Made by a program: the position numbers and the translations under genes
DNA from: Allostella sp. ATCC 35155
GTDB taxonomy: Bacteria > Pseudomonadota > Alphaproteobacteria > ATCC43930 > Allostellaceae
Assembly (NCBI GenBank): GCA_006738865.1
Contig: AP019701.1
Location: 5,157,974-5,221,973 of the forward strand
Direction of reading: 5' to 3'
DNA: 64,000 nt
Notes under the pieces: model-generated
Seen by the model: only the letters and a program-made list of their open reading frames with translations
What the model was told of the DNA's origin: nothing
Database searches by the model: none
In this document: piece by piece, positions 29,152-41,430 of the stretch
Position numbering within the stretch: position 1 is the first letter of the stretch
Layout: each line of letters opens with the position of its first letter

Positions 29152-30114
29152 ATGAGCCTCGCCGTCGCCATCCAGATGGACCCCATCGAGACCATCAACA
29201 TCGACGCCGACTCGTCCTTTGTCCTCGCGTTGGAGGCGCAACGGCGAGGGCATGCGCTCTACCACTACCTGCCGCAGCACCTGTCCCTGCGCGGAGGGCG
29301 GGTGGTGGCCCGCTGCCGCCCGCTGCAGGTGCGGCGCGAGAAGGGCAACCACCACAGCTTCGGCGCGTGGGAGACGGTCGACCTCGCCACCATGGACGTC
29401 GTCCTGATGCGGCAGGACCCGCCCTTCGACATGGCCTACATCACCGCGACCCATCTGCTGGAGCACATCCATCCGCAGACGCTGGTCGTGAACGACCCGG
29501 TGCGGGTGCGCAATGCGCCGGAGAAGCTCTACGTCACCCACTTTCCCGAACTGATGCCGCCGACCGTGATCACCGCCGACCGGCAGGAGATTCTGGCCTT
29601 CCGGGCCGAGCACAAGGACATCATCGTCAAGCCGCTGTTCGGCAATGGCGGTGCCGGCGTCTTCCATATCGGGCCCGAGGACGAGAACCTGTCGGCGCTC
29701 CTCGAGCTCTTCACCCAGCTCTACCGGGAGCCGATCATCGTCCAGCGCTACCTACCGGAGGTGCGCCAGGGCGACAAGCGCATCATCCTGGTCGACGGGG
29801 TGCCGGGCGGCGCCATCGACCGCGTGCCCGAGAAGGGCGAGGCGCGGGCCAACATGCATGCCGGCGCCAAGCCGCAGAAGGCGACGCTGACCGAGCGCGA
29901 CCGCGAGATCTGCGCCGCGATCGGCCCCGCGCTGCGCGAGGCGGGCCTCATCTTCGTCGGCATCGACGTCATCGGCGGCTACCTGACCGAGATCAACGTC
30001 ACCTCCCCGACCGGCATCCAGGAGATCAACCGCTTCGACGGCGTGCGCCTCGAATCGGACATATGGGACGCCATCGATCGCCGCCTCGCGGAGCGCAGCC
30101 GCCCGCCCGCCTGA
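29152..30114 (+). CDS. gshB: Glutathione synthetase
   Basis: 320-residue ATP-grasp ligase joining gamma-glutamylcysteine and glycine. Typical blocks: [18 protein letters not shown] at the N-terminus, [40 protein letters not shown] and [19 protein letters not shown], with SPTGIQEIN at the end. ATG 29152 has GGAG 7 nt upstream. Intact full-length gene; a 201-bp piece of a second, 97.5% identical copy occurs at 35549-35749. Confidence 0.96.
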
Positions 30115-30130
30115 CCATGATCGGCTGACC

Positions 30131-31183
30131 TCAGGGCGACGGCAGCACCAGCGCCGCCGCCCAGCGGCGTGCGACGGCTGCGGGCGAGAAGCGGAGCCTC
30201 ACCTCCGCCTGCCCGGCCGCAATCCGCGCCAATGCCTCGGCCGGGTTGGCCAGCGCCCAGCGGACACCCTCGGACGCCTCGCCCACCCAGGCACCGCGGT
30301 CGAGCTCCCGGTAGGCCGGGATCGGCGCCGCGAGGGCGAATCGCCCCTGGCGGATCGCCTCCACCAGGCGGTTGTGCGACTTGGCATCGGCGCGGGGGTC
30401 GCCTGCCGGCTGGGGCAGCAGCACGAAATCGGCGTCGGCCAGCGCGGCCGTGACTGCGGGCAGCGACCAGTCCCGGTGCGTGATGCGCCAGGATCCCTCG
30501 ACCCGGTCGATCATCGCATCGGCGAGGCGAGTGACCTCGCCGGCCGCTTCGGTCTGCGTCACGACGGTGAGAGACAGGCGGCGATCGGCCAGCCGGATGC
30601 CGTCGAGCGTGCGGGCCAGCAGACGGGCCGTCCCGGGGCCCCAGGTGCCGAACCAGACGAACCGCAGCTCGGGGCCGGGAGCGAACCGGGGTCGTGCCAT
30701 CTCCTCCGTCTCGGCCGGATCCTCGACGACGAGCGGCGCGTGGTGGCAGCGCGGGCGGTAGTGGTCGGCCAGCCAGCGGCTCGGCACGACCGGGACGAAG
30801 CGCCCGAGCACGAGGTCGCGATGGCGACCGGCCGGTCCCTCGTCCGCGGCCATCAGGTCGCAGACATCGGCATGGATCGGCCGCGCGGCCGCCAGCCGCT
30901 CCAGCGCATCGAGGGCGGCAGAGCAGATCCCGGGGTGCAGGGCAAAGGTGCCGGGCGTCGGCTTGCCCAGGACGATGCGGATCGCCGGATCGCGAAGCCG
31001 CTCGGCGATGCCCGGCCGGGCGATGTCGGTCAGGGAGACGAGGCCGGTCTCGTGCCCCAGGGCACGCAGGCCGGCCGCGGGAACGAGGCAGCGCAGGCGG
31101 ACGCTCGCCACCGGTGAATCCAGCACCTGTCCGGCGGCGAGCGTGGGCGCTGCCACACCGTTGACGAAGACGATCCTTGCCAT
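30131..31183 (-). CDS. Glycosyltransferase-like protein (GT-B type, tentative)
   Basis: 350 residues. An N-terminal [20 protein letters not shown] start, a mid segment LRFVWFGTWGPGTARLLART and a C-terminal half with ADADFVLLPQPAGDPRADAKSHNRLVEAI, which resembles the donor-binding region of GT-B glycosyltransferases. I do not recognise a named family or acceptor. ATG 31183 begins the conserved region; a longer frame is not supported. It is divergent from the truncated comM copy and convergent with gshB. The 5' end (about 41 codons) recurs at 35750-35871. Confidence 0.6.
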   Translation of the reverse strand: MARIVFVNGVAAPTLAAGQVLDSPVASVRLRCLVPAAGLRALGHETGLVSLTDIARPGIAERLRDPAIRIVLGKPTPGTFALHPGICSAALDALERLAAARPIHADVCDLMAADEGPAGRHRDLVLGRFVPVVPSRWLADHYRPRCHHAPLVVEDPAETEEMARPRFAPGPELRFVWFGTWGPGTARLLARTLDGIRLADRRLSLTVVTQTEAAGEVTRLADAMIDRVEGSWRITHRDWSLPAVTAALADADFVLLPQPAGDPRADAKSHNRLVEAIRQGRFALAAPIPAYRELDRGAWVGEASEGVRWALANPAEALARIAAGQAEVRLRFSPAAVARRWAAALVLPSP

Positions 31184-31948
31184 GCGGCCGGCAGGCTGAC
31201 ATGCGGGCGTGCGACGCGCCAGCGCCACCCCGTCCCGAATGTCCGAAGACGGACCGGTGGCAGGACGGCGCGCGGGCTCCTACACTCGATCGGAGCAGAG
31301 GGAGGGGGGATGGTCGCGCGGATCGCGACGGTCGCGTTCCAGGGCATCGAGGTGCGCGCGGTCGACGTTCAGGTTCAGATGGCGGCGGGGCTGCCGACCT
31401 TCGCGCTCGTCGGCCTGCCCGACAAGGCGGTGGCGGAGAGCCGCGAGCGGGTGCGCGCGGCGCTGGCCGCGATGGGCCTCGCCCTGCCGCCCAAGCGCAT
31501 CACGGTCAACCTGTCGCCGGCCGACCTTCTGAAGGAGGGCAGCCATTTCGACCTGCCGATCGCGCTTGGCCTACTGGTCGCCATGGGCGTCCTGCCGGCG
31601 GATGCGATGGCGGACTTCGTGGCGTTGGGGGAACTGGCGCTGGACGGCGCGCTGGCGCCGGTCGCGGGCGTGCTGCCGGCGGCGGTCCATGCCAACGCCC
31701 AGGGCCGCGGCCTGATCTGTCCCGAGGCATCGGGCGGCGAGGCGGCCTGGGCGGGCGAGATGACGATCATCGCCGCCCCCAGCCTGCTCTCGCTGGTCAA
31801 TCATGTGAAGGGCGTGCAGCAGCTGGCGCCGCCCCGGCCGCGTCTGGCCGACGATGGCGGGCCCCTGCCCGACCTCGCCGCGGTCAAGGGCCAGGAGACC
31901 GCCAAGCGCGCGCTCGAGGTCGCCGCGGCCGGCGGGCACAACCTGCTG
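31061..31948 (+). repeat. Homologous segment, copy A (glycosyltransferase 5' end, intergenic, comM 5' part)
   Basis: About 888 bp aligned with 35749-36635 (copy B). Over the comM part (639 bp) I count about 20 differences, roughly 97% identity, nearly all at synonymous third positions; only three change residues. The copies are offset by 4687 bp in comM and 4688 bp in the glycosyltransferase part. The homology ends abruptly at 31948. Confidence 0.9.
31310..31948 (+). pseudogene. comM: Truncated comM, N-terminal 213 codons
   Basis: The frame starts like the intact comM at 35997 with the same ribosome site (GAGGGAGGGGGG) and runs for 213 codons, ending right before the P-loop (which begins three residues further in the full gene). 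Reading then continues in frame through unrelated DNA for 64 more codons to a stop at 32143, overlapping the restriction-modification gene start by 10 bp. The N-terminal Lon-substrate-like domain is complete but the AAA+ ATPase part is gone, so helicase-type ComM function is lost. Confidence 0.88.
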
Positions 31949-32133: not shown

Positions 32134-34539
32134 ATGCCGCTAACGAACGCGCAACAGGACTGGTACGCGCGAGCAATCCTGGACCTCGACCCCGCTAGTG
32201 AGATCGTTCGGCTCGACCGACTAGGTAATCTGGTCCACTACTCGGCCGAGATTGCCACTGATGAGAGCCACTCCAAGCCGCTTACGCCTGAAGAGTGGGT
32301 CCATGCCCTCGCCTGTGTGTTGCTTGTCAAAGAGTTAGGCTATCCCATTGGACGCCTGGTGCACGAGCGGCGCATCGAGCACGGTTCGTCTGGGTCGAAT
32401 GCCGATGAGATCGACATCGTCGTTCTAGACGGCGACGGTCGACCCTACGCAGTCTGGGAACTGAAATCCGCTGAAGCGTATGCGGGCGAGCTTGAGACGG
32501 CTACCAGATTGCAGCTATTCGGGACGGTGCCCCTGCTCACCAGTGGCGCCCCCACGTTCATCGTTTGCGCTACCATAGATCCTGGGGGTGCCGTTCCGGA
32601 GTTCAAGCAGCGCTGCATCGACTACCGCGAACACAAAGACTACGAGGCATGGCTGGCTGCGGGTAAGCCAGCGGTCCCCGCATTTCCGCGGGAGTATTTC
32701 GAGCCAGATTACCAGCCTTACACGCGCGGTGGGGCGCGGGACCTTAAAACGACCTGCACGCTTGCCGAGTTCAAGGCGGTGGCGGCTTCATTTCACAATG
32801 AGTTTTTTGCGGAACACCCCGACAACCAGCTTTTCGAAGACCTCATTCGTTGTTTGCTGGCGAAGATTTATTCTGAAAAAAACACTCAGACGGGAAGTCA
32901 GTACGAGTTCCAGGTCTTGATGCCACACGGCAAGCCCGAGTCGGCGGCGAGCGTCTTCCAGCGAGTGAATGCATTGTACGCGAGGGCGTACCAGCATTAC
33001 ATCGAACCCGGTCGGTCAGACGAAATAGACCCGCGTCGTTTCCCAGCCGAGCGGGTTAAATCAGTTGTACAGCAAATTGAAGGAATGGCGCTAACTAGAG
33101 GAGCGGCGCTGAACGCAGACATTATTGGTGCATTCTTCGAGGAGGTTCTCCGGTCCGGGTTCAAGCAGGACCGTGGTATGTACTTCACGCACGATAACAT
33201 TGTCCGCTTTATGGTTGAGGCGGTAGGCTTGCGCGACCTGACCCGTAAGAAATGGCGGTCCGCGTCTCATCCGGAGCAGCGACTGCCTTATGTATTCGAC
33301 CCCGCCTGCGGGAGCGGTACTTTCCTTCTTCACTCAATGTACGCGATTACAGATGAGATTAGGTCGAATCGGGCGTGGTTCGCCCGAACTGATAGCGACG
33401 AGGATTTTCTGAACCAGCATCTGAGCGATGCGTCGCCGAACGGCTGGGCGAAGGACTTCCTCTACGGCTTCGATCCTAAGTTCATTATGGCAATGACAGC
33501 CAAGCTGAACATGGTGCTGCATGGCGACGGGGTGGCGCACCTGTTCAAGGAGGATGCTTTTAGAACGATGGGCTCGTATCACGATGCCCGCTTGCGGCCG
33601 GTCACCGGTCCGACAAGAAGTCTACCGGAAAATGTTTACCCGCCGAAGATGTGCGAGACATTCGATGTTGTCATTTCCAATCCACCGTTCGGTGTAACGC
33701 TGTCCACAGAAACGCGCCATACCTTAAGTAAGGCGTTCACGCTGCCTCCTAATTCTTCGACTGAGGCGCTGTTCGTAGAGAGAGCGTTCCAGTTGTTGAA
33801 GCCGCATGGGCGCTTGGCGGTCGTGCTACCGGAGTCCATTCTCAATGCGGCCGACACCGACCTGCGACTTTTCTTGATGCGTATGTTTCACATACGTGCA
33901 GTGGTCACGATGCCACGCCACGTATTCGTGGACACACCTACGCTGACCAGCCTTCTATTTGCTCAGAAGAAGTTACCTGATGAGATCTCCACATGGGATC
34001 GTACCTGGGATGAGGAAAAAGCTAAGATTGAGGCGCAGGTGGCGAAGGCACGCGGCCACCTAACCGTGGCCGCCACGCGTGCTTTCTCCTCGGCGAATGC
34101 TTTGGAAACGGCGGTGCTCAACGAGCTATCCGTGATCGGCCCGCGGACCCTGTGGGTCATGAAGCGAGGCCAGAATGGAGGTCCACTGACCTTTGGCCTA
34201 CCACCCCACATCGCGGCCGCACCGGATGCGGCGCGCTACTACCAGGACCTCCTCCGCTCGCCAGGATTCCTAGATTTGTCGCGACAGGCCGTGTTTAGAG
34301 GAGTTGCGGCGCGGCTGGACGCGACCTGGCCATGTTACGCGGTGGAGGAAGTTGGCTTCAAGTTGAGCAGGCGGGGCGAGAGGATACGCGAGAATCAGCT
34401 TGCTACCTTCGTCGGGACGAAGTCGGAGAGGGAAGTTCCTAATCTGCATCTTGCTACCGAGACGGTACGGGTTGTCGTCAATCGTGAGCATGCTCGGACG
34501 GTGTTGGACTGCATGGTCTCTGAAATGGTGTGGAGCTAA
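32134..34539 (+). CDS. Restriction-modification fusion: nuclease domain plus N6-adenine DNA methylase
   Basis: 801 residues. The N-terminal 180 residues resemble the HsdR nuclease domain with a PD-(D/E)xK site: D94 (DEIDIVV), E109 and K111 (VWELKSAE). Then an HsdM-type helical region and a methylase with motif I DPACGSGTF (389-397) and motif IV NPPF (516-519), plus STEALFVERAFQLLKPHGR. No helicase/translocase domain is present here or nearby. A nuclease-methylase chain with a separate specificity subunit is the layout of BcgI-like Type IIB enzymes; a Type I M subunit with an HsdR-like N-terminus is the alternative. ATG 32134 has GGAAG 5 nt upstream. GC is lower than in neighbours. Confidence 0.85.
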   Translation: MPLTNAQQDWYARAILDLDPASEIVRLDRLGNLVHYSAEIATDESHSKPLTPEEWVHALACVLLVKELGYPIGRLVHERRIEHGSSGSNADEIDIVVLDGDGRPYAVWELKSAEAYAGELETATRLQLFGTVPLLTSGAPTFIVCATIDPGGAVPEFKQRCIDYREHKDYEAWLAAGKPAVPAFPREYFEPDYQPYTRGGARDLKTTCTLAEFKAVAASFHNEFFAEHPDNQLFEDLIRCLLAKIYSEKNTQTGSQYEFQVLMPHGKPESAASVFQRVNALYARAYQHYIEPGRSDEIDPRRFPAERVKSVVQQIEGMALTRGAALNADIIGAFFEEVLRSGFKQDRGMYFTHDNIVRFMVEAVGLRDLTRKKWRSASHPEQRLPYVFDPACGSGTFLLHSMYAITDEIRSNRAWFARTDSDEDFLNQHLSDASPNGWAKDFLYGFDPKFIMAMTAKLNMVLHGDGVAHLFKEDAFRTMGSYHDARLRPVTGPTRSLPENVYPPKMCETFDVVISNPPFGVTLSTETRHTLSKAFTLPPNSSTEALFVERAFQLLKPHGRLAVVLPESILNAADTDLRLFLMRMFHIRAVVTMPRHVFVDTPTLTSLLFAQKKLPDEISTWDRTWDEEKAKIEAQVAKARGHLTVAATRAFSSANALETAVLNELSVIGPRTLWVMKRGQNGGPLTFGLPPHIAAAPDAARYYQDLLRSPGFLDLSRQAVFRGVAARLDATWPCYAVEEVGFKLSRRGERIRENQLATFVGTKSEREVPNLHLATETVRVVVNREHARTVLDCMVSEMVWS

Positions 34540-34547
34540 AATCCCCT

Positions 34548-35357
34548 ATGTCACTCCCACTCCGTGCGAGATGCAGCCTGAGCGCCGTTGCTCGCAGCCC
34601 TACGTTCCGTATCGACGCCAAGCAGGCGGCGCCCAGTAGCGTCCAACTCGACGCCATCCTGGATAGGGTCCCTACTTTCTACCTCAATGAGTTCCTGCCC
34701 GAGCCGTTCGTCAAAGGTAGACAGCCGATTTACCTCGACGACACGCAAGACGAGGGGGCTATGGTCATCAACACTGGTGCCGTGCGTCCGCTCGGTATCA
34801 CCTTCGGGCTTTGTCGCCGGATCTCGTCCTCCGACTTTGAGGGCCTCGCTCCTGCGCGTAAACTTCGAGACGGCGATGTCCTGCTCACCACGGACGGGGG
34901 CACCTCCATCGGCAAGGTCGCGGTCTTCAAGACACCCTCAGGTGAAGACGGAACTCTGATGGAGTGTGGCTTTACGGTGGACAGTCACGTGGCCGTGCTT
35001 AGGCCGTGCGGTATTTCGCCGGTACTACTGGCTTATCTACTTTGCTCGCCAATGGGGCAGATCCAGTTCCAGCGCGCCGAGAGCGGTGCTAGCGGCCAGA
35101 CCGCAGTGAGTGAGGAGGATGTCAGACGGTTCCGCTTTCCCCGCGTCCCAGAGGCGGCGTTCGAGCAAGCCCGTGAGAGTTTTACGGCAGCGCTGGAGGA
35201 GGCCCGCAGGCTTGAGGCCGAGGCGTACAAGAAGCGCCAGGACGGATGGGGGGCCTTTGAGGCAATCCTGTTGCAGGCCGATGGCGAGCAGCCGGTTCGG
35301 CTCGCGGCGCGGGCTCGTCCGAACGAGAAGCGCCAAAGGCAAGCTATCGCCGGATAG
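34548..35357 (+). CDS. Restriction-modification specificity subunit (HsdS-like, single recognition domain)
   Basis: 269 residues. Blocks typical of S subunits: RDGDVLLTTDGGTSIGKVAVF, SGQTAVSEEDVRRFRFPRVP, then a C-terminal helix (AFEQARESFTAALEEARRLE) of the coiled-coil spacer kind. Only one target-recognition domain is visible, about half of a usual HsdS, so a dimer would be needed for a bipartite site. ATG 34548 is 8 bp after the methylase stop; a GTG at 34530 overlaps the methylase end. It determines the DNA sequence recognised by the upstream enzyme (known for the family). Confidence 0.82.
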   Translation: MSLPLRARCSLSAVARSPTFRIDAKQAAPSSVQLDAILDRVPTFYLNEFLPEPFVKGRQPIYLDDTQDEGAMVINTGAVRPLGITFGLCRRISSSDFEGLAPARKLRDGDVLLTTDGGTSIGKVAVFKTPSGEDGTLMECGFTVDSHVAVLRPCGISPVLLAYLLCSPMGQIQFQRAESGASGQTAVSEEDVRRFRFPRVPEAAFEQARESFTAALEEARRLEAEAYKKRQDGWGAFEAILLQADGEQPVRLAARARPNEKRQRQAIAG

Positions 35358-35548: not shown

Positions 35549-35749
35549 TGGCCCGCTGCCGCCCGCTGCAGGTGCGGCGCGAGAAGGGCAACCACCACAG
35601 CTTCGGCGCGTGGGAGACGATCGACCTCGCCACCATGGACGTCGTCCTGATGCGGCAGGACCCGCCCTTCGACATGGCCTACATCACGGCGACCCATCTC
35701 CTGGAGCACATCCACCCGCAGACCCTGGTCGTGAACGACCCGGTGCGGG
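35549..35749 (+). pseudogene. gshB: gshB internal fragment
   Basis: 201 bp matching 29306-29506 of intact gshB with five substitutions. It covers about codons 52-118, without start, ATP-grasp core or end. At 35749 it joins directly to the reversed 5' end of the glycosyltransferase-like gene; compared with the intact locus 1554 bp (29507-31060) are missing, with a GGG shared at the joint. Non-functional. Confidence 0.9.
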
Positions 35750-36635
35750 GCACGCAGGCCGGCCGCGGGGACGAGGCAGCGCAGGCGGACGCTCGCCACC
35801 GGCGAATCCAGCACCTGTCCGGCGGCGAGCGTGGGTGCCGCCACGCCGTTGACGAAGACGATCCTTCCCATGCGGTCGGCAGGCTGACATGCGGGTGCCC
35901 GTCGCGCCAGCGCCACCCGGTTGATGCGCACCGGGACGGACGGGTGACAGGACGGCGCGCGGACTTCTACACTCGATCGGAGCAGAGGGAGGGGGGATGG
36001 TCGCGCGGATCGCGACGGTCGCGTTCCAGGGCATCGAGGTGCGCGCGGTCGACGTTCAGGTGCAGATGGCGGCGGGGCTGCCGACCTTCGCGCTCGTCGG
36101 CCTGCCCGACAAGGCGGTGGCGGAGAGCCGGGAGCGGGTGCGCGCGGCGCTGGCCGCGATGGGCCTCGCCCTGCCGCCCAAGCGCATCACGGTCAACCTG
36201 TCGCCGGCCGACCTCCTGAAGGAGGGCAGCCATTTCGACCTGCCGATCGCCCTCGGCCTGCTGGTCGCCATGGGGGTCCTGCCGGCGGATGCGATGGCGG
36301 ATTTCGTGGCGTTGGGGGAACTGGCGCTGGACGGCGCGCTGGCGCCGGTCGCGGGCGTGCTGCCGGCGGCGGTCCATGCCAACGCCCAGGGCCGCGGCCT
36401 GATCTGTCCCGAGGCATCGGGCGGCGAGGCGGCGTGGGCGGGTGACATGACGGTCATCGCCGCCCCCAGCCTGCTGTCGCTGGTCAATCATGTGAAGGGC
36501 GTCCAGCAGCGGGCGCCGCCCCGGCCACGCCTGGCCGACGATGGCGGCCCTCTGCCCGACCTCGCCGCGGTCAAGGGCCAGGAGACGGCCAAGCGCGCGC
36601 TCGAGGTCGCCGCGGCCGGCGGGCACAACCTGCTG
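35749..36635 (+). repeat. Homologous segment, copy B (glycosyltransferase 5' end, intergenic, comM 5' part)
   Basis: Second copy of 31061-31948. Here the comM part runs on into the complete gene. The intergenic stretch between the glycosyltransferase start and comM is the most diverged part (several substitutions and a net 1-bp indel), while the coding part differs almost only synonymously. Confidence 0.9.
35750..35871 (-). pseudogene. 5' fragment of the glycosyltransferase-like gene
   Basis: About 41 codons from the ATG at 35871, [20 protein letters not shown] in place of MARIVFVNG in the intact gene, then fused out of context to gshB fragment sequence. The start codon and promoter side are intact, so a short nonsense product could be made. 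Confidence 0.85.
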
Positions 36636-37514
36636 ATGGTCGGCCCGCCCGGGTCGGGCAAGTCGATGCTGGCGGCGCGGCTGCCGGGACTGCTGCCGCC
36701 GCTCGCGCCCGCCGAGGCCCTGGAAGTCTCGCTGGTCCACAGCGTCGCCGGCCTGCTGAAGGAGGGGCGGATCAGCCGCCGCCGGCCGTTCCGCGACCCC
36801 CATCACTCCGCATCGCAGGCGGCGCTGATCGGCGGCGGCCCCCGTGCCCGGCCCGGCGAGGTCTCGCTCGCCCATCGCGGCGTCCTCTTCCTCGACGAGC
36901 TGCCGGAGTTCCAGCGGCCGGCGCTCGAGGCCTTGCGCCAGCCGCTCGAGACGGGCCGCGCCGTCGTCGCCCGCGCACAGGCGCACGTCACCTATCCGGC
37001 GCGCTTCCAGCTCGTCGCGGCGATGAACCCCTGCCGCTGCGGCCATCTCGACGATCCGGCGGTCGCCTGCGGGCGGGCACCCGCCTGCGCGCGCGACTAT
37101 CAGGGCAAGCTGTCGGGGCCGCTGATCGATCGCATCGACCTGCATGTCGACGTGCCGGCGGTCACCGCCGCCGACCTCGCGCTGCCGCCGCCGAGCGAGA
37201 ACTCGGCCGCCGTTGCCGCGCGAGTGGCCGAGGCACGCGAGCGCCAGCGCGCGCGATTCGATCGGCTGGGCGCCGTCGGGGTCGCCTGCAATGCGGAAGC
37301 CGACGGCGAACTTCTCGACGCGGTGGCCGACCCCGACCCCGACGGCAAGCGTCTCCTCGCCGACGCGGCTGACCGCCTGCGCCTGTCGGCGCGCGGCTGG
37401 CACCGGGTACTGCGCGTCGCGCGGACGCTGGCCGACCTCGAGGCGGTGGAGCGGGTTCGCCGCATCCACATCGCCGAGGCGCTGTCCTACCGCCGGATGG
37501 GATTCGCGGGCTGA
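35997..37514 (+). CDS. comM: ComM/YifB-family Mg-chelatase-like AAA+ ATPase
   Basis: 505 residues, complete. N-terminal Lon-substrate-like domain (1-190), Walker A GPPGSGKS at 216-223, Walker [11 protein letters not shown], and the C-terminal Mg-chelatase-like helical domain ([20 protein letters not shown]). ComM is described as a hexameric branch-migration helicase that helps integrate DNA during natural transformation. This is the only intact copy; a second copy of its first 213 codons lies at 31310. It converges with the aldolase-like gene, 11 bp apart. comM is a known insertion site of resistance islands in Acinetobacter. Confidence 0.93.
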
Positions 37515-37525
37515 GCCGCCCGGCC

Positions 37526-38275
37526 TCAGTGGCGGTATTCCGGCTCCTGCCGGTCCAGCATGCGCTTGATGGCGATGAAATGCCGCTCCGCCACCTTGGG
37601 CAGGTCGCCGGCCATCTGCTGGCGGGTGTGACGGCGCACCTCGTCCGGGATCGTCCGGAGTTCCTCGCCATCGGACCGGGCGAGGATCTGGAACATGCAG
37701 GCACGCTCCAGATAGTAGAGATCGTTGAAGGCATCGGCGACGGAGGGGCCGACGGCGATCACGCCGTGGCTCGCCAGCATGAGGACGCTGGCGCTGCCCA
37801 GCCCGTCGGCCAGCCGGTCGCCCTCGGACCGATCCAGCGCGAGGCCGCCATAGATCTCGTCGTAGGCGATCCGGCCGTCGAACATCAGCGCGTTCTGCTC
37901 GCACATCTCCAGGCGCATCCGCCGGCGCAGCGTCAGCGCGGTGGCATGCGGCTGATGCGTGTGCAGCACGGCGACCGCATGCGGCGCCTTCAGATGGATG
38001 CGGCTGTGGATGAAGAAGGCGCTGTCCTCGACCGGCCCCTCGCCCTCCAGGACGTTGCCGTCGGCATCGCAGAGGCACAGCGACGAAGCGGTGATCTCCG
38101 ACCAGTGCCAGCCATAGGGGTTGATCAGGAACCGGTCGCCGCGGACGCGTCCCGTGGCGTCGGGAACTGCGACCGAGAAATGATTGTCGACCCCCTCGTT
38201 GAACCCCAGGCGCGCGGCCCAGCGCAGCGCCGCTGCGAGATCGACGCGCAGCGTCGCCACCAGATCGTTCGTCAT
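37526..38275 (-). CDS. Class II aldolase/adducin-family protein
   Basis: 249 residues. Zinc-site histidines in VLHTHQPHATAL and in ASHGVIAVG, with NHFSVAVPD near the N-terminus. The family includes fuculose-phosphate and rhamnulose-phosphate aldolases and decarboxylases; this longer, FIHSRIHLKAPHAVAVLHTH form is usually annotated only as a class II aldolase. It starts 8 bp after the second RT-like gene on the same strand and may be co-transcribed with it. Substrate unknown. Confidence 0.85.
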   Translation of the reverse strand: MTNDLVATLRVDLAAALRWAARLGFNEGVDNHFSVAVPDATGRVRGDRFLINPYGWHWSEITASSLCLCDADGNVLEGEGPVEDSAFFIHSRIHLKAPHAVAVLHTHQPHATALTLRRRMRLEMCEQNALMFDGRIAYDEIYGGLALDRSEGDRLADGLGSASVLMLASHGVIAVGPSVADAFNDLYYLERACMFQILARSDGEELRTIPDEVRRHTRQQMAGDLPKVAERHFIAIKRMLDRQEPEYRH

Positions 38276-38283
38276 GCCCTTCC

Positions 38284-39786
38284 CTACTCCTGTCGGCCGG
38301 CCGCGGCCCGGCCGGGCTCCATCTCATCTGCAATCGCGGCGGCGACGAGATCGACCTGCGAATCCCGCCTGCTCCAGTCGGCCAGGATGGTCCGCCGCGC
38401 CTCGGCCGAACGGTAGCGGAAGCCGAAGGCGATTGCCGCACGCAAGTGCGACGAGCGCGCACCGACCGCAACCTGCTCCAGTGCGCGCCAGCCGGGCTCG
38501 GTCGCGAACCTGGACCAGACGACGGCCGCCGCCGCACGGACCGGATCGGGCCAGCGGTCGGAACCGGCGATCTCCGCGACGAGGCGGGCCGTCGCCGGCG
38601 CGGGCGGGCCCCCGGCCCAGAGGGCGGCGAGCGCCCACATCCATTGCCAGGCATGGAGCGAGTCGGCCCGCGCGACGAGTTCCCGCTCGAACCGTTCGCG
38701 GACCGGGCGGTCGTCCATGAATTCGCGGAGATAGAGCGCCCGGATGCGTGCCGCCCAGGGCTCGCGAACGAAGGCGGCGACCGATCCCTCGACGGCCGAT
38801 CCGTCGCCCCTGCGCGCGAGGTCGAGCAGCGCCCATTGCTCCGCCTTGAATCGCTCTATGCCCGATCCGGCGGCGCCCGCGAGCAGGCGGTGCGCCGATC
38901 CGGCGCGGGCGATCTCGGCGCGGATGCGGTCGGCTTCCCGCCATTCCTGGAGCAGCCGCTGCCGCGGGACGATCCGCGTCTTTCGCCGATTGGTCCGCAG
39001 TCCGAGTTCGCCCAGGCGATCGACCGCGGCCGCCGCGATCGCCTCCGCCGCGGCGAGGTTCCGGGCGGGCAGCATGGCGCTGTCGACCAGCCGGAACGAC
39101 GGACAGGGGGGGTTGCCGATCGGGCGGTCGAGCGGCGCCAGCGCGATCGTGACGAATGCGCCGGAAGCCATCATATCGTGGAGAAAGCCGTTCGGGCCGA
39201 TGGCCGGGTTGAGGGCTTCGTCGAGGCGATGGCCGACCTTCGTCCAGCTTTCGGGCAGGCCGGCGGCCGCCAACTGTGAGAGCAGCGGGCGGCGGGCGAT
39301 ACCGCGATCCGCCTGTGCCGCGTCGAACTCGACCATGTGGGTCCAGCGTCCGGCGGAGGCCGTCCGCCGCGCTGCCTGTTCGTAGCAGTGCGCCCACCAG
39401 TGGCTGTCGGCCAGCAGGAGCTTCTCGCCGGGCCGCGACGGAAGGGCCGAAAAGACACGGGCCCGGTCGAGCTGGGGCTCCAGATGCCCCATCGCCTGCG
39501 CCGCGAGCAGCAGCAGCAGCACCCGTTCCGTCGGCGCCGCCACGGCATCCGTGCGCTCGGAATAGGCTGGGGAGCAGCCGTGCTCATGGTGCAGCCACGT
39601 GTAGGGGCTGGGAGGCACGAGCGGCGTGCCGCTCAGGATCTGCCCACGGACACGGTGGAACGCGAACTGCGCGACCAGCTTCCAGTGGGGCGCGAAGACC
39701 TGCTCGCGCGACATCTCGAGCAGCAGGGTGGTCTGGGCGGCCTGCCAGTCGTCCTCGTCCAGTTGCTCGGGCCCGGCCGCCATCAT
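38284..39786 (-). CDS. Diverged reverse-transcriptase-like protein, degenerate active site (RT-B)
   Basis: 500 residues, clearly paralogous to the upstream RT-like protein (shared start DEDxW, shared C-terminal RSSHLRAAIAFGFRYRSAEA block). Motif A keeps D155 (HMVEFDAAQADRGI). Motif C reads FRLVDSAM with D235-S236 where active enzymes have DD. Motif D LGLRTNRRKTRIV keeps K269. The N-terminal PK motif is lost (YTWLHHEHGC). Residues about 330-500 are a HEAT-like helical domain (HAWQWMWALAALWAGG). The start, an ATGATG, overlaps the upstream stop. Polymerase activity is doubtful; a partner or regulatory subunit role is inferred. Confidence 0.65.
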   Translation of the reverse strand: MMAAGPEQLDEDDWQAAQTTLLLEMSREQVFAPHWKLVAQFAFHRVRGQILSGTPLVPPSPYTWLHHEHGCSPAYSERTDAVAAPTERVLLLLLAAQAMGHLEPQLDRARVFSALPSRPGEKLLLADSHWWAHCYEQAARRTASAGRWTHMVEFDAAQADRGIARRPLLSQLAAAGLPESWTKVGHRLDEALNPAIGPNGFLHDMMASGAFVTIALAPLDRPIGNPPCPSFRLVDSAMLPARNLAAAEAIAAAAVDRLGELGLRTNRRKTRIVPRQRLLQEWREADRIRAEIARAGSAHRLLAGAAGSGIERFKAEQWALLDLARRGDGSAVEGSVAAFVREPWAARIRALYLREFMDDRPVRERFERELVARADSLHAWQWMWALAALWAGGPPAPATARLVAEIAGSDRWPDPVRAAAAVVWSRFATEPGWRALEQVAVGARSSHLRAAIAFGFRYRSAEARRTILADWSRRDSQVDLVAAAIADEMEPGRAAAGRQE

Positions 39787-41279
39787 GCGCTGTTGTCGCC
39801 GGCCGGCTCGAGCGCGGCCGCCACCAGGGCGATGAGTGGGTCGCGCGGCGCCCATTCGCGCAGGAGCGGCCGCCGCTCGGCGGCAGGACGATGCACCAGG
39901 CCCCAGGCGATGGCGGCGCGGACATGGCGCGAGCGGGTCGTTCCGGCCAGGCGCGCCAGTTCGGTCCAGTCGTTCCGTGTCGCAAACCGCGACCCGACCG
40001 CGGCGGCGGCGATGCGCACCGGCTCCGGCACGCGTTCGTCCGCCAGCAGGCCGAACAGCGCGCGCAGGACGTTGGCGCGCACGCGCGGCGCGCGGCGAAA
40101 GGTCGAAATGCCCCAGGACCACTGCCACGGATGGAGCTTCGGGCCGGCGGTGACGAGCATCGCCGCCATGCCGTCGCCCACCGCCGGATCCTCCATGAAG
40201 CGGGCGACATGGATGGCGAAGGTGCGTGCGGCGGCGGGCGCGTGCGGAAACCGCCCAAGCACATGCGACAGTGCGCTGGCGTCGGCGTCGGCCGCCAGCC
40301 GCGCCAGGGCGGCGTCTGCGATCGGCAGGAACCGGGGATCGTCCTCGGGCGTGGCCAGCAGCTGCGCGCGCGCCGCGTCGCAGCTCCAGGCTGCATCGGG
40401 CATCCGCGCGCGCTCGCGGCGGCGCTCCTCCCGGAACGCGGCGGTGGTCTGCAGGATGACGGTTTCCGGGGTGGCGTCGAACCCGTTGGCGGCCAGGACG
40501 GCGCCCGCGCCCTGCGCCAGGCGATCGGCGGTGGCGAGGTCGGGCGCGGCGATCACCGTGTCGTCCATCATGCGCGCGGAGACGGCGCCCGCCCCGGCGC
40601 ACCAGCGGTCGATCGGCGCCAGCATGATGGTCACGAAGCCCGCGGTGACGAAGCCGGTGATGGGCAGGCCGGCCGGCCCCAGCGTCTCCGTACAGCTGCC
40701 GAGCAGGCGGCGGGCGACGGCGAGCCAGCCGGCGGCGAGCCCGACCTCCTCCAGGATCCGCAGCAGCCGGTCGCGCCCGATCCGCTCGCCGCATCGCACG
40801 ACATCGAGGCGGGCGACGGCGTCGGCCCGGGCCGTGGTGCCGTCGACCCGCGCCGAGAACGCCCGCGTCCATTCCTCGGGCCGGGTGAACAGACCCGGCT
40901 GATCGGCCGCCGCCGGGCGGCTCGACAGCACGCGCTGCCGGTCGAGGACGGGTTCGCAGCGCGCGATCGCGGTCGCCGCAAGCAGCAGCCAGGCCGTCTC
41001 CTCGACGGGCTGCAGCAGGCAGTGGCGGCGCTGTGGAGCCCCGCGGTCGGAGCGGTTCGACTTCGGCACGAAGTAGGGCAGCGGCGCGGCCGGAGTGTCT
41101 GCGCCCGGGTGGAGGAGCCGGTGGCGCACGGCGGGAAAGGCCCGGCGCTGGATCGCGTCCAGGTGCGGCGCCCAGCAAGTGCGGCGCGGCAGGTCGCCCA
41201 GCAACTCGTGGTGCACGCGGCGCCAGCCGTCCTCGTCGATGTCGCCGGCGCTGGCCACGGCATGCTGCGCCGGGTTCAT
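39783..41279 (-). CDS. Diverged reverse-transcriptase-like protein with MMDD box (RT-A)
   Basis: 498 residues. RT motifs in order: YFVPKSNRSDR (K73), VEETAWLLLAATAIARCEPV then DRQRVLSS, motif A ARLDVVRCGERI (D159), motif B AGLPITGFVTAGFVTIMLAP (G204 on), motif C ARMMDDTVIA (M237-M238-D239-D240), and a weak motif D ANGFDATPETVILQ lacking the lysine. The pattern fits the UG/Abi group of bacterial RTs, not group II introns (no maturase or HNH). About 330-498 is helical, HEAT-like (HPWQWSWGISTFRRAP). GGAG lies 7 nt before the ATG. It overlaps RT-B by 4 bp. Some UG RTs are anti-phage; function here is unknown. Confidence 0.75.
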   Translation of the reverse strand: MNPAQHAVASAGDIDEDGWRRVHHELLGDLPRRTCWAPHLDAIQRRAFPAVRHRLLHPGADTPAAPLPYFVPKSNRSDRGAPQRRHCLLQPVEETAWLLLAATAIARCEPVLDRQRVLSSRPAAADQPGLFTRPEEWTRAFSARVDGTTARADAVARLDVVRCGERIGRDRLLRILEEVGLAAGWLAVARRLLGSCTETLGPAGLPITGFVTAGFVTIMLAPIDRWCAGAGAVSARMMDDTVIAAPDLATADRLAQGAGAVLAANGFDATPETVILQTTAAFREERRRERARMPDAAWSCDAARAQLLATPEDDPRFLPIADAALARLAADADASALSHVLGRFPHAPAAARTFAIHVARFMEDPAVGDGMAAMLVTAGPKLHPWQWSWGISTFRRAPRVRANVLRALFGLLADERVPEPVRIAAAAVGSRFATRNDWTELARLAGTTRSRHVRAAIAWGLVHRPAAERRPLLREWAPRDPLIALVAAALEPAGDNSA

Positions 41280-41430
41280 CGGCGCGCTCCGCTCGTGTGG
41301 TATTTCGATACCGCGTGCCCGATTCGGGTGCGACTCGCGATGATTCCTTGCCCGTTCGTCGGACGTTCCGTGATTCTCCGCCGAGTCGCGAAGCCATAAG
41401 CGATCGTGATTCGTTCCGCCTTCGTTCGGC
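41280..41430 (-). ncRNA. Structured leader of the RT-like operon, candidate non-coding RNA
   Basis: 151 bp between the glnD stop and RT-A. It contains GGTAT-TTCG-ATACC (41299-41312), CCCGA-T-TCGGG (41315-41325), and a longer pairing GCGACTCG (41330-41337) with CGAGTCGC (41382-41389). TGATTC occurs three times (41341, 41371, 41407). It could be the glnD terminator, the RT promoter leader, or a template/regulatory RNA as found beside several defence RTs. Which of these holds cannot be decided from sequence. Confidence 0.35.

Follow-up and report, generated by a model that had tools for sequence, protein, structure and literature searches.

Reverse transcriptases (RTs) of UG/Abi Class 1 have a helical lobe in place of the thumb domain and act as template-free, oligomeric enzymes (PMC9508834, PMC13174585). 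In AbiK and DRT3b, the helical domains join neighboring protomers, and protein-primed synthesis is possible (PMC9508834, PMC13174585). Each Class 1 UG/Abi polymerase described in the papers cited here either forms homo-oligomers from a single gene product or is one of the two active RTs of DRT3, a system in which a Class 2 and a Class 1 RT are combined with a non-coding RNA (ncRNA; PMC13174585). The analyzed stretch of DNA from Allostella sp. ATCC 35155 (64,000 nucleotides, hereafter the window) contains a tandem pair of RT-like genes, RT1 and RT2, which a preliminary description made from the sequence alone had proposed to be an undescribed or very divergent two-RT system.

Gene pair and layout

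The two overlapping genes of about 500 codons that had been reported were recovered with 498 (RT1) and 500 (RT2) codons on the minus strand (Table 1). The stop codon of RT1 and the start codon of RT2 overlap in an ATGA sequence, through which the translation of both genes is probably coupled. Long open reading frames (ORFs) on the plus strand of the same stretch are products of the high G + C content; homologs exist only for the minus-strand frames. RT1 and RT2 are 32% identical over 481 residues (E = 1e-49), which is almost their whole length, and judged by this similarity they are paralogs, as had been proposed.

Table 1. Features of the RT1–RT2 locus (positions refer to the window).
Feature	Position	Strand	Basis or remark
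RT1, catalytic-type RT-like protein, 498 aa	39783..41279	minus	ORF, RT_UG20 match, model
RT1 fingers/palm, approx. residues 14–295
RT1 alpha-helical repeat (HEAT/alphaRep-like) domain, approx. residues 316–490	39810..40334	minus	profile match, model
RT1 VPKS, fingers PK motif	41058..41069	minus	alignment; VPKS in both RT1s
RT1 motif A, Asp159 to Gly164	40788..40805	minus	Gly164 at the aromatic steric-gate position
RT1 motif B region GLPITGFVTAGFVT	40629..40670	minus	alignment; LPQG-type Gln lost
RT1 motif C, Asp239-Asp240 (MMDD)	40560..40565	minus	alignment
RT1 stop/RT2 start overlap (ATGA), 4 nt	39783..39786	minus	also in congener G001
RT2, degenerate RT-like paralog, 500 aa	38284..39786	minus	ORF, RT_UG20 match, model
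RT2 fingers/palm, approx. residues 8–295
RT2 alpha-helical repeat domain, approx. residues 310–490	38317..38859	minus	model, fold matches
RT2 Tyr62	39601..39603	minus	invariant in RT2-like proteins, as are Tyr352 and Tyr458
RT2 motif A, Asp155	39322..39324	minus	alignment; kept
RT2 motif C, Asp235-Ser236 (LVDS)	39079..39084	minus	alignment; third catalytic carboxylate lost
Class II aldolase gene	37526..38275	minus	starts 8 nt after the RT2 stop; flanking host gene, outside the system
Conserved leader/promoter-like element after glnD, 135 nt	41296..41430	minus	comparison with congeners

Fold and family affiliation

Searches against Pfam and NCBIfam yielded no significant match for the two window proteins, and RT1 hit Pfam RVT_1 below the threshold (E = 0.24). 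RT1 of the congener G001, which carries the same gene pair, matched RVT_1 with an E-value of 1.8e-6 (28.3 bits, trimmed protein) and reached 30.0 bits in the genome scan against a cut-off of 29.6. Among the PADLOC models, RT_UG20 was the top match of all five proteins of the clade formed by the pair and its relatives, with the next family far behind. The E-values were 4.3e-33 for RT1, 8.5e-41 for RT2, and 8e-37, 3.5e-51, and 2.8e-34 for the remaining three proteins, at bit scores of 113–173 for the clade compared to 736–759 for canonical UG20 proteins. The PADLOC models UG9_large and UG9_small matched neither the window proteins (E ≤ 5) nor the other clade proteins (E ≤ 1e-3).

AlphaFold2 models of RT1 and RT2, built on a seven-sequence alignment, had mean pLDDT values of 85.6 and 85.0, respectively. 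Their best fold matches in the PDB were DRT4, DRT6, UG15, AbiK, and Abi-P2, all over the full length and including the helical C-terminal domain (410–560 alignment columns, TM-scores up to 0.62). In the models, helices extend from residue 316 (RT1) or 310 (RT2) to the C-terminal end, and the profile of the clade touches designed alphaReps as well as RT palms among the PDB sequences. The full-length matches to solved UG/Abi RTs indicate that both proteins have a palm, fingers, and a helical lobe replacing the thumb; as modeled, RT1 and RT2 adopt an RT fold with a HEAT/alphaRep-type lobe in the position of the thumb, as in Class 1 UG/Abi RTs. The HEAT-like last third and the kinship to UG/Abi RTs, both suggested in the preliminary description, are thus corroborated by the models, the matches to AbiK, Abi-P2, DRT4, and alphaRep chains, and the RT_UG20 matches. 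Neither of the two outcomes named there as speaking against an RT pair (a model without palm and fingers or a match to an unrelated helical family) was observed.

Phylogenetic position

A maximum-likelihood tree computed for 17 RTs united the five proteins in a clade with a support of 100/100, within which the RT1s (99/97) and the RT2-like proteins (100/99) each clustered together. Since RT1s and RT2s group by type across species, the duplication predates the species split. The clade is placed beside UG20 but outside the UG20 clade, as its sister group (88/92) with a long stem (1.55 changes per column); the existence of the clade is more certain than its exact position because the composition of the clade is unusual owing to its high G + C content. 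Representatives of UG22, UG23, and UG32 for inclusion in the tree were not found in 200 genomes each. The claim of a very divergent two-RT system is supported, but the pair does have known relatives, with UG20 as the nearest named family.

Active-site motifs

The ordered RT motifs recognized earlier are real, but RT2 lacks the PK motif and has LVDS as motif C, and in RT1 motif B lacks the Gln and motif D the Lys. The catalytic triad (motif A Asp and motif C Asp-Asp) is complete in both RT1s (Asp159, Asp239, and Asp240 in the window), whereas the position of Asp240 is occupied by Ser, Gly, and Gly in the three RT2-like proteins (Ser in the window). Similarly, the VPK motif is kept in both RT1s but gone from all three RT2-like proteins. 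Only 32 alignment columns show no variation across the clade and UG20, and Asp159 and Asp239 (RT1 numbering) are among them. None of the five clade proteins retains the motif-B Gln or the Tyr of YxDD, and the motif-D Lys is absent from the window RT1 but kept in RT2.

An aromatic residue at the fifth position after the motif-A Asp, the steric gate, normally restricts such enzymes to DNA building blocks. Both RT1s have Gly at this position and the RT2-like proteins Asp, Gly, and Gly, but 40 of 40 other RTs collected have Phe or Tyr; Phe is also found in an unrelated RT encoded at 1.43 Mb in the window's own genome. The survey was run without a motif-A filter, and because the applied motif-C filter makes DD counts in the controls circular, only the gate position was evaluated. 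Pressure from G + C content was rejected as the cause of the loss, as 11 of the 41 control RT loci have a G + C content of at least 60% (two at 71%) and retain Phe or Tyr. In DRT3b, Phe187, located five residues after Asp182, contacts the ribose (PMC13174585), and the loss of the gate suggests, as far as can be read from the alignment, a relaxed sugar choice. The window RT1 contains a single tyrosine in 498 residues and has none in common with RT1 of G001. These motif and tyrosine losses are facts of few sequences (the five clade proteins), and the chemistry considered below is inferred from them.

Occurrence and evolution

Among 61 genomes (the window's own and those of relatives), the pair is present in the window's genome (G000) and in that of the congener G001, where it occupies the same place between glnD and the class II aldolase gene, with gene order and ATGA overlap unchanged. 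Two further congeners (G002 and G003) have a clean empty site with the aldolase gene but without the pair. The survey for co-occurrence proposed in the preliminary description thus found both genes together in two genomes, but an additional RT2-like gene stands alone in G000 (L007 5927–7453, at approximately 2.12 Mb). It is about 41–48% identical to the RT2s, has RLIDG as motif C, and has no RT1 alongside, so an adjacent RT1 may be dispensable for RT2. A HigA-like antitoxin ORF is located approximately 5 kb from this lone gene. The clade comprises five proteins from two genomes of one genus; beyond the own genome, scans of 43 genomes of the order, 385 of the class, and 398 of the phylum did not enlarge it and returned only weak generic RTs besides canonical UG20 (G184 and G700). 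Looser matches of the RT_UG20 model within the class were mostly other RTs with YxDD and Phe or Tyr gates and were discarded. Profile scans of genome-contig and viral-contig collections gave no relative, RT2 had no match in a phage collection, and a plasmid collection contained no further member, only canonical UG20 at 22–25% identity.

Between the window and G001, RT1 is 44% and RT2 50% identical, compared to 83–93% for the flanking genes. The dN/dS ratios (NG86) of 0.58 (RT1) and 0.51 (RT2) far exceed those of the flanking genes (0.08–0.20) and indicate rapid evolution of the pair at a fixed locus, although the ratios of the pair are rough because its dS of about 0.9 is near saturation. Fast evolution is often observed in defense genes. 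The dS of the neighbors is lower (0.5–0.6), and the raised dS of the pair may reflect exchange at the locus rather than plain descent. Identity of the RT genes is 64–65% at codon positions 1 and 2 versus 49% at position 3. Conservation is lower in the catalytic than in the helical domain, both between the orthologs of RT1 (40% versus 52%) and between those of RT2 (47% versus 60%), and the helical domain is again the better conserved part between the paralogs; the lower conservation of the catalytic domain also fits weakened catalysis.

Flanking regions

The pair is separated by 151 nt from glnD and by 8 nt from the start of the aldolase gene. Most of the 151-nt gap, comprising the conserved element (Table 1), is also conserved in G002 and G003, where it precedes the aldolase gene in the absence of RT genes. 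The element occupies the same place in the window and in L008, L047, and L048, and in most congeners it contains a GGTATC..ATACC palindrome of the GGTATC/GATACC type. It is probably a promoter or operator. The 135-nt stretch was also considered as an RT-specific ncRNA, which was rejected because congeners without RT genes carry most of it. An RT-specific ncRNA is unlikely since the element is shared with congeners lacking the pair, Rfam gave no match in 30–50 kb of the window, and only 8 nt are available downstream. Its absence fits a Class 1 system rather than DRT3.

The direct flanks of the pair are housekeeping genes (glnD and the class II aldolase gene), not a dense defense island, and a restriction-modification module (methylase/specificity) lies 3 kb away. 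This module encodes an N6 methylase with an HSDR_N-like part (32134–34539) and a specificity-like subunit (34530–35357) in the yifB/comM region, and it is flanked by duplicated pieces (window 29306–29506, 31060–31948, and 35549–36635). The first 639 bp of yifB are repeated with 97% identity at 31310–31948, intact yifB (35997–37514) lies after the module, and 201 bp further upstream of the yifB piece are likewise duplicated. The arrangement resembles an insertion event in which the target was duplicated and yifB was restored. Plasmid-borne UG20 relatives adjoin toxin–antitoxin, SIR2, and DarT genes. In G700, a second, short RT with YMDD (L054 1613–2431) is located approximately 4 kb from the canonical UG20 gene and suggests a defense island there. 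The aforementioned unrelated RT of the window's genome (L069, approximately 1,431,178–1,431,756) is a 580-aa ORF with intact motifs and, by eye only, an RNase H-like domain at its end; its G + C content of 57.6% is lower than that of the RT genes in the window.

Proposed function and alternative explanations

The pair is probably one system, a two-subunit, template-free defense polymerase of the Class 1 UG/Abi type (AbiK/DRT4-like) with RT1 as catalytic subunit and RT2 as degenerate partner, and we hold this reading with moderate confidence. Duplication followed by division of labor would have given rise to RT1, which retained the metal-binding Asp159, Asp239, and Asp240 and the PK motif of the fingers, and to RT2, which retained two of the carboxylates and lost the third together with the PK motif. 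RT2 probably packs on RT1 via the helical domains, like neighboring protomers in AbiK trimers or hexamers, and may provide a structural or priming surface. The complex would then add nucleotides without a nucleic-acid template, probably upon infection, and its product or the activated complex itself would stop the infected cell. Polymerase activity, hetero-oligomerization, template independence, the nature of the product, and phage defense are all putative; the defense role is suggested by the family, the patchy presence at one locus, the fast divergence, and the restriction-modification module nearby. Against this reading, RT1 has lost the Gln of motif B, the YxDD Tyr, the steric gate, and, in the window, the Lys of motif D. 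A more specific and rather doubtful version sees in the pair a template-free polymerase with protein priming that would incorporate ribonucleotides, or fail to discriminate between NTPs and dNTPs, because the aromatic gate is lost across the clade, with RT1 as catalyst and RT2, a pseudo-RT with three invariant tyrosines, priming in trans. If true, an RT-derived RNA or mixed polymer would be the defense product.

The multiple motif losses in both proteins, together with the better conservation of the helical domain than of the palm, would also be expected if the pair were domesticated and catalytically weak or dead, serving as an RT-derived helical scaffold or nucleotide-sensing complex. Such a complex might be tied to the downstream aldolase transcript, given the 8-nt distance and the conserved leader that precedes the aldolase gene with or without the pair. 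This explanation is unlikely: all three catalytic carboxylates are present in both RT1s despite only 40% identity of the domain, Asp159 and Asp239 are invariant in all five clade proteins, and two congeners have the aldolase gene without the pair. It is highly improbable that the genes are mere remnants of a degenerating defense gene retained by chance; the elevated dN/dS ratios and the motif losses would agree with decay, but the full-length ORFs of both genes in two species (four in all), their shared order and ATGA overlap, the higher identity at codon positions 1 and 2 than at position 3, the kept catalytic residues, and the confidently folded models would not. An origin outside the RTs, in an unrelated helical family with chance motifs, could be suspected from the missing Pfam and NCBIfam matches of the window proteins, yet is practically negligible in view of the UG20 matches across the clade (E-values of 1e-33 to 1e-51), the RVT_1 match of the congener RT1, and the full-length fold similarity to solved RTs.

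That both subunits polymerize, each making one strand as the DRT3 RTs make complementary DNA strands, appears improbable. Two RT genes in one operon, the retention of Asp155, Asp235, and the motif-D Lys in RT2, and the existence of two-RT UG systems (DRT3 and the PADLOC models UG9_large/UG9_small; PMC13174585) agree with this arrangement. However, none of the three RT2-like proteins has the PK motif or the second motif-C Asp, no pair-specific conserved element of ncRNA size was found, and RT1 and RT2 are Class 1-like sister paralogs, unlike DRT3a and DRT3b. Under the preferred reading, of a catalytic RT1 with a degenerate RT2, a sister clade that combines an active with a degenerate chain and has lost the sugar-selecting residue would show how Class 1 enzymes specialize, and the pair would directly test whether priming and catalysis can reside on different chains and whether the product is necessarily DNA.

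Comparison with known systems

The nearest named family is UG20 (PADLOC RT_UG20, PDLC03758), a candidate UG/Abi defense RT that shares the layout of the pair and the invariant FAPH-type, Asp159, Asp239, and WQxxW columns. In contrast to the pair, canonical UG20 occurs as a single gene at the examined loci and has an intact YVDD, a Phe steric gate, and the motif-B Gln, all of which are replaced in the pair. AbiK and Abi-P2, which are Class 1 Abi polymerases, resemble the pair in their thumbless palm and fingers, their helical lobe, and the fold match over the full length, but they are single-gene homo-oligomers with an intact active site and a known priming Tyr (PMC9508834). DRT4 (UG15) and DRT6 are the top PDB fold matches of RT1 and RT2; they are single-gene systems (PMC13213688) with a sequence identity to the pair of only 9–16%. 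DRT3 (DRT3a, DRT3b, and ncRNA) likewise has two RT genes, of which one encodes a Class 1 RT bearing an alphaRep domain, and had been invoked as an analog of the pair in the preliminary description. The analogy is not supported: DRT3 unites two active RTs of different classes, and its ncRNA templates DRT3a (PMC13174585), whereas RT1 and RT2 are sister paralogs of one Class 1-like lineage, only RT1 has the full triad, RT2 is degenerate, and no RT-specific ncRNA was found at the locus. For UG9, the PADLOC model names UG9_large and UG9_small imply another family with two RT forms. Two-RT UG systems (DRT3 and the PADLOC UG9 models) and the fold family were thus already known, and what is new here is a pair of one active and one degenerate sister paralog in a clade beside UG20 that has lost the steric gate.
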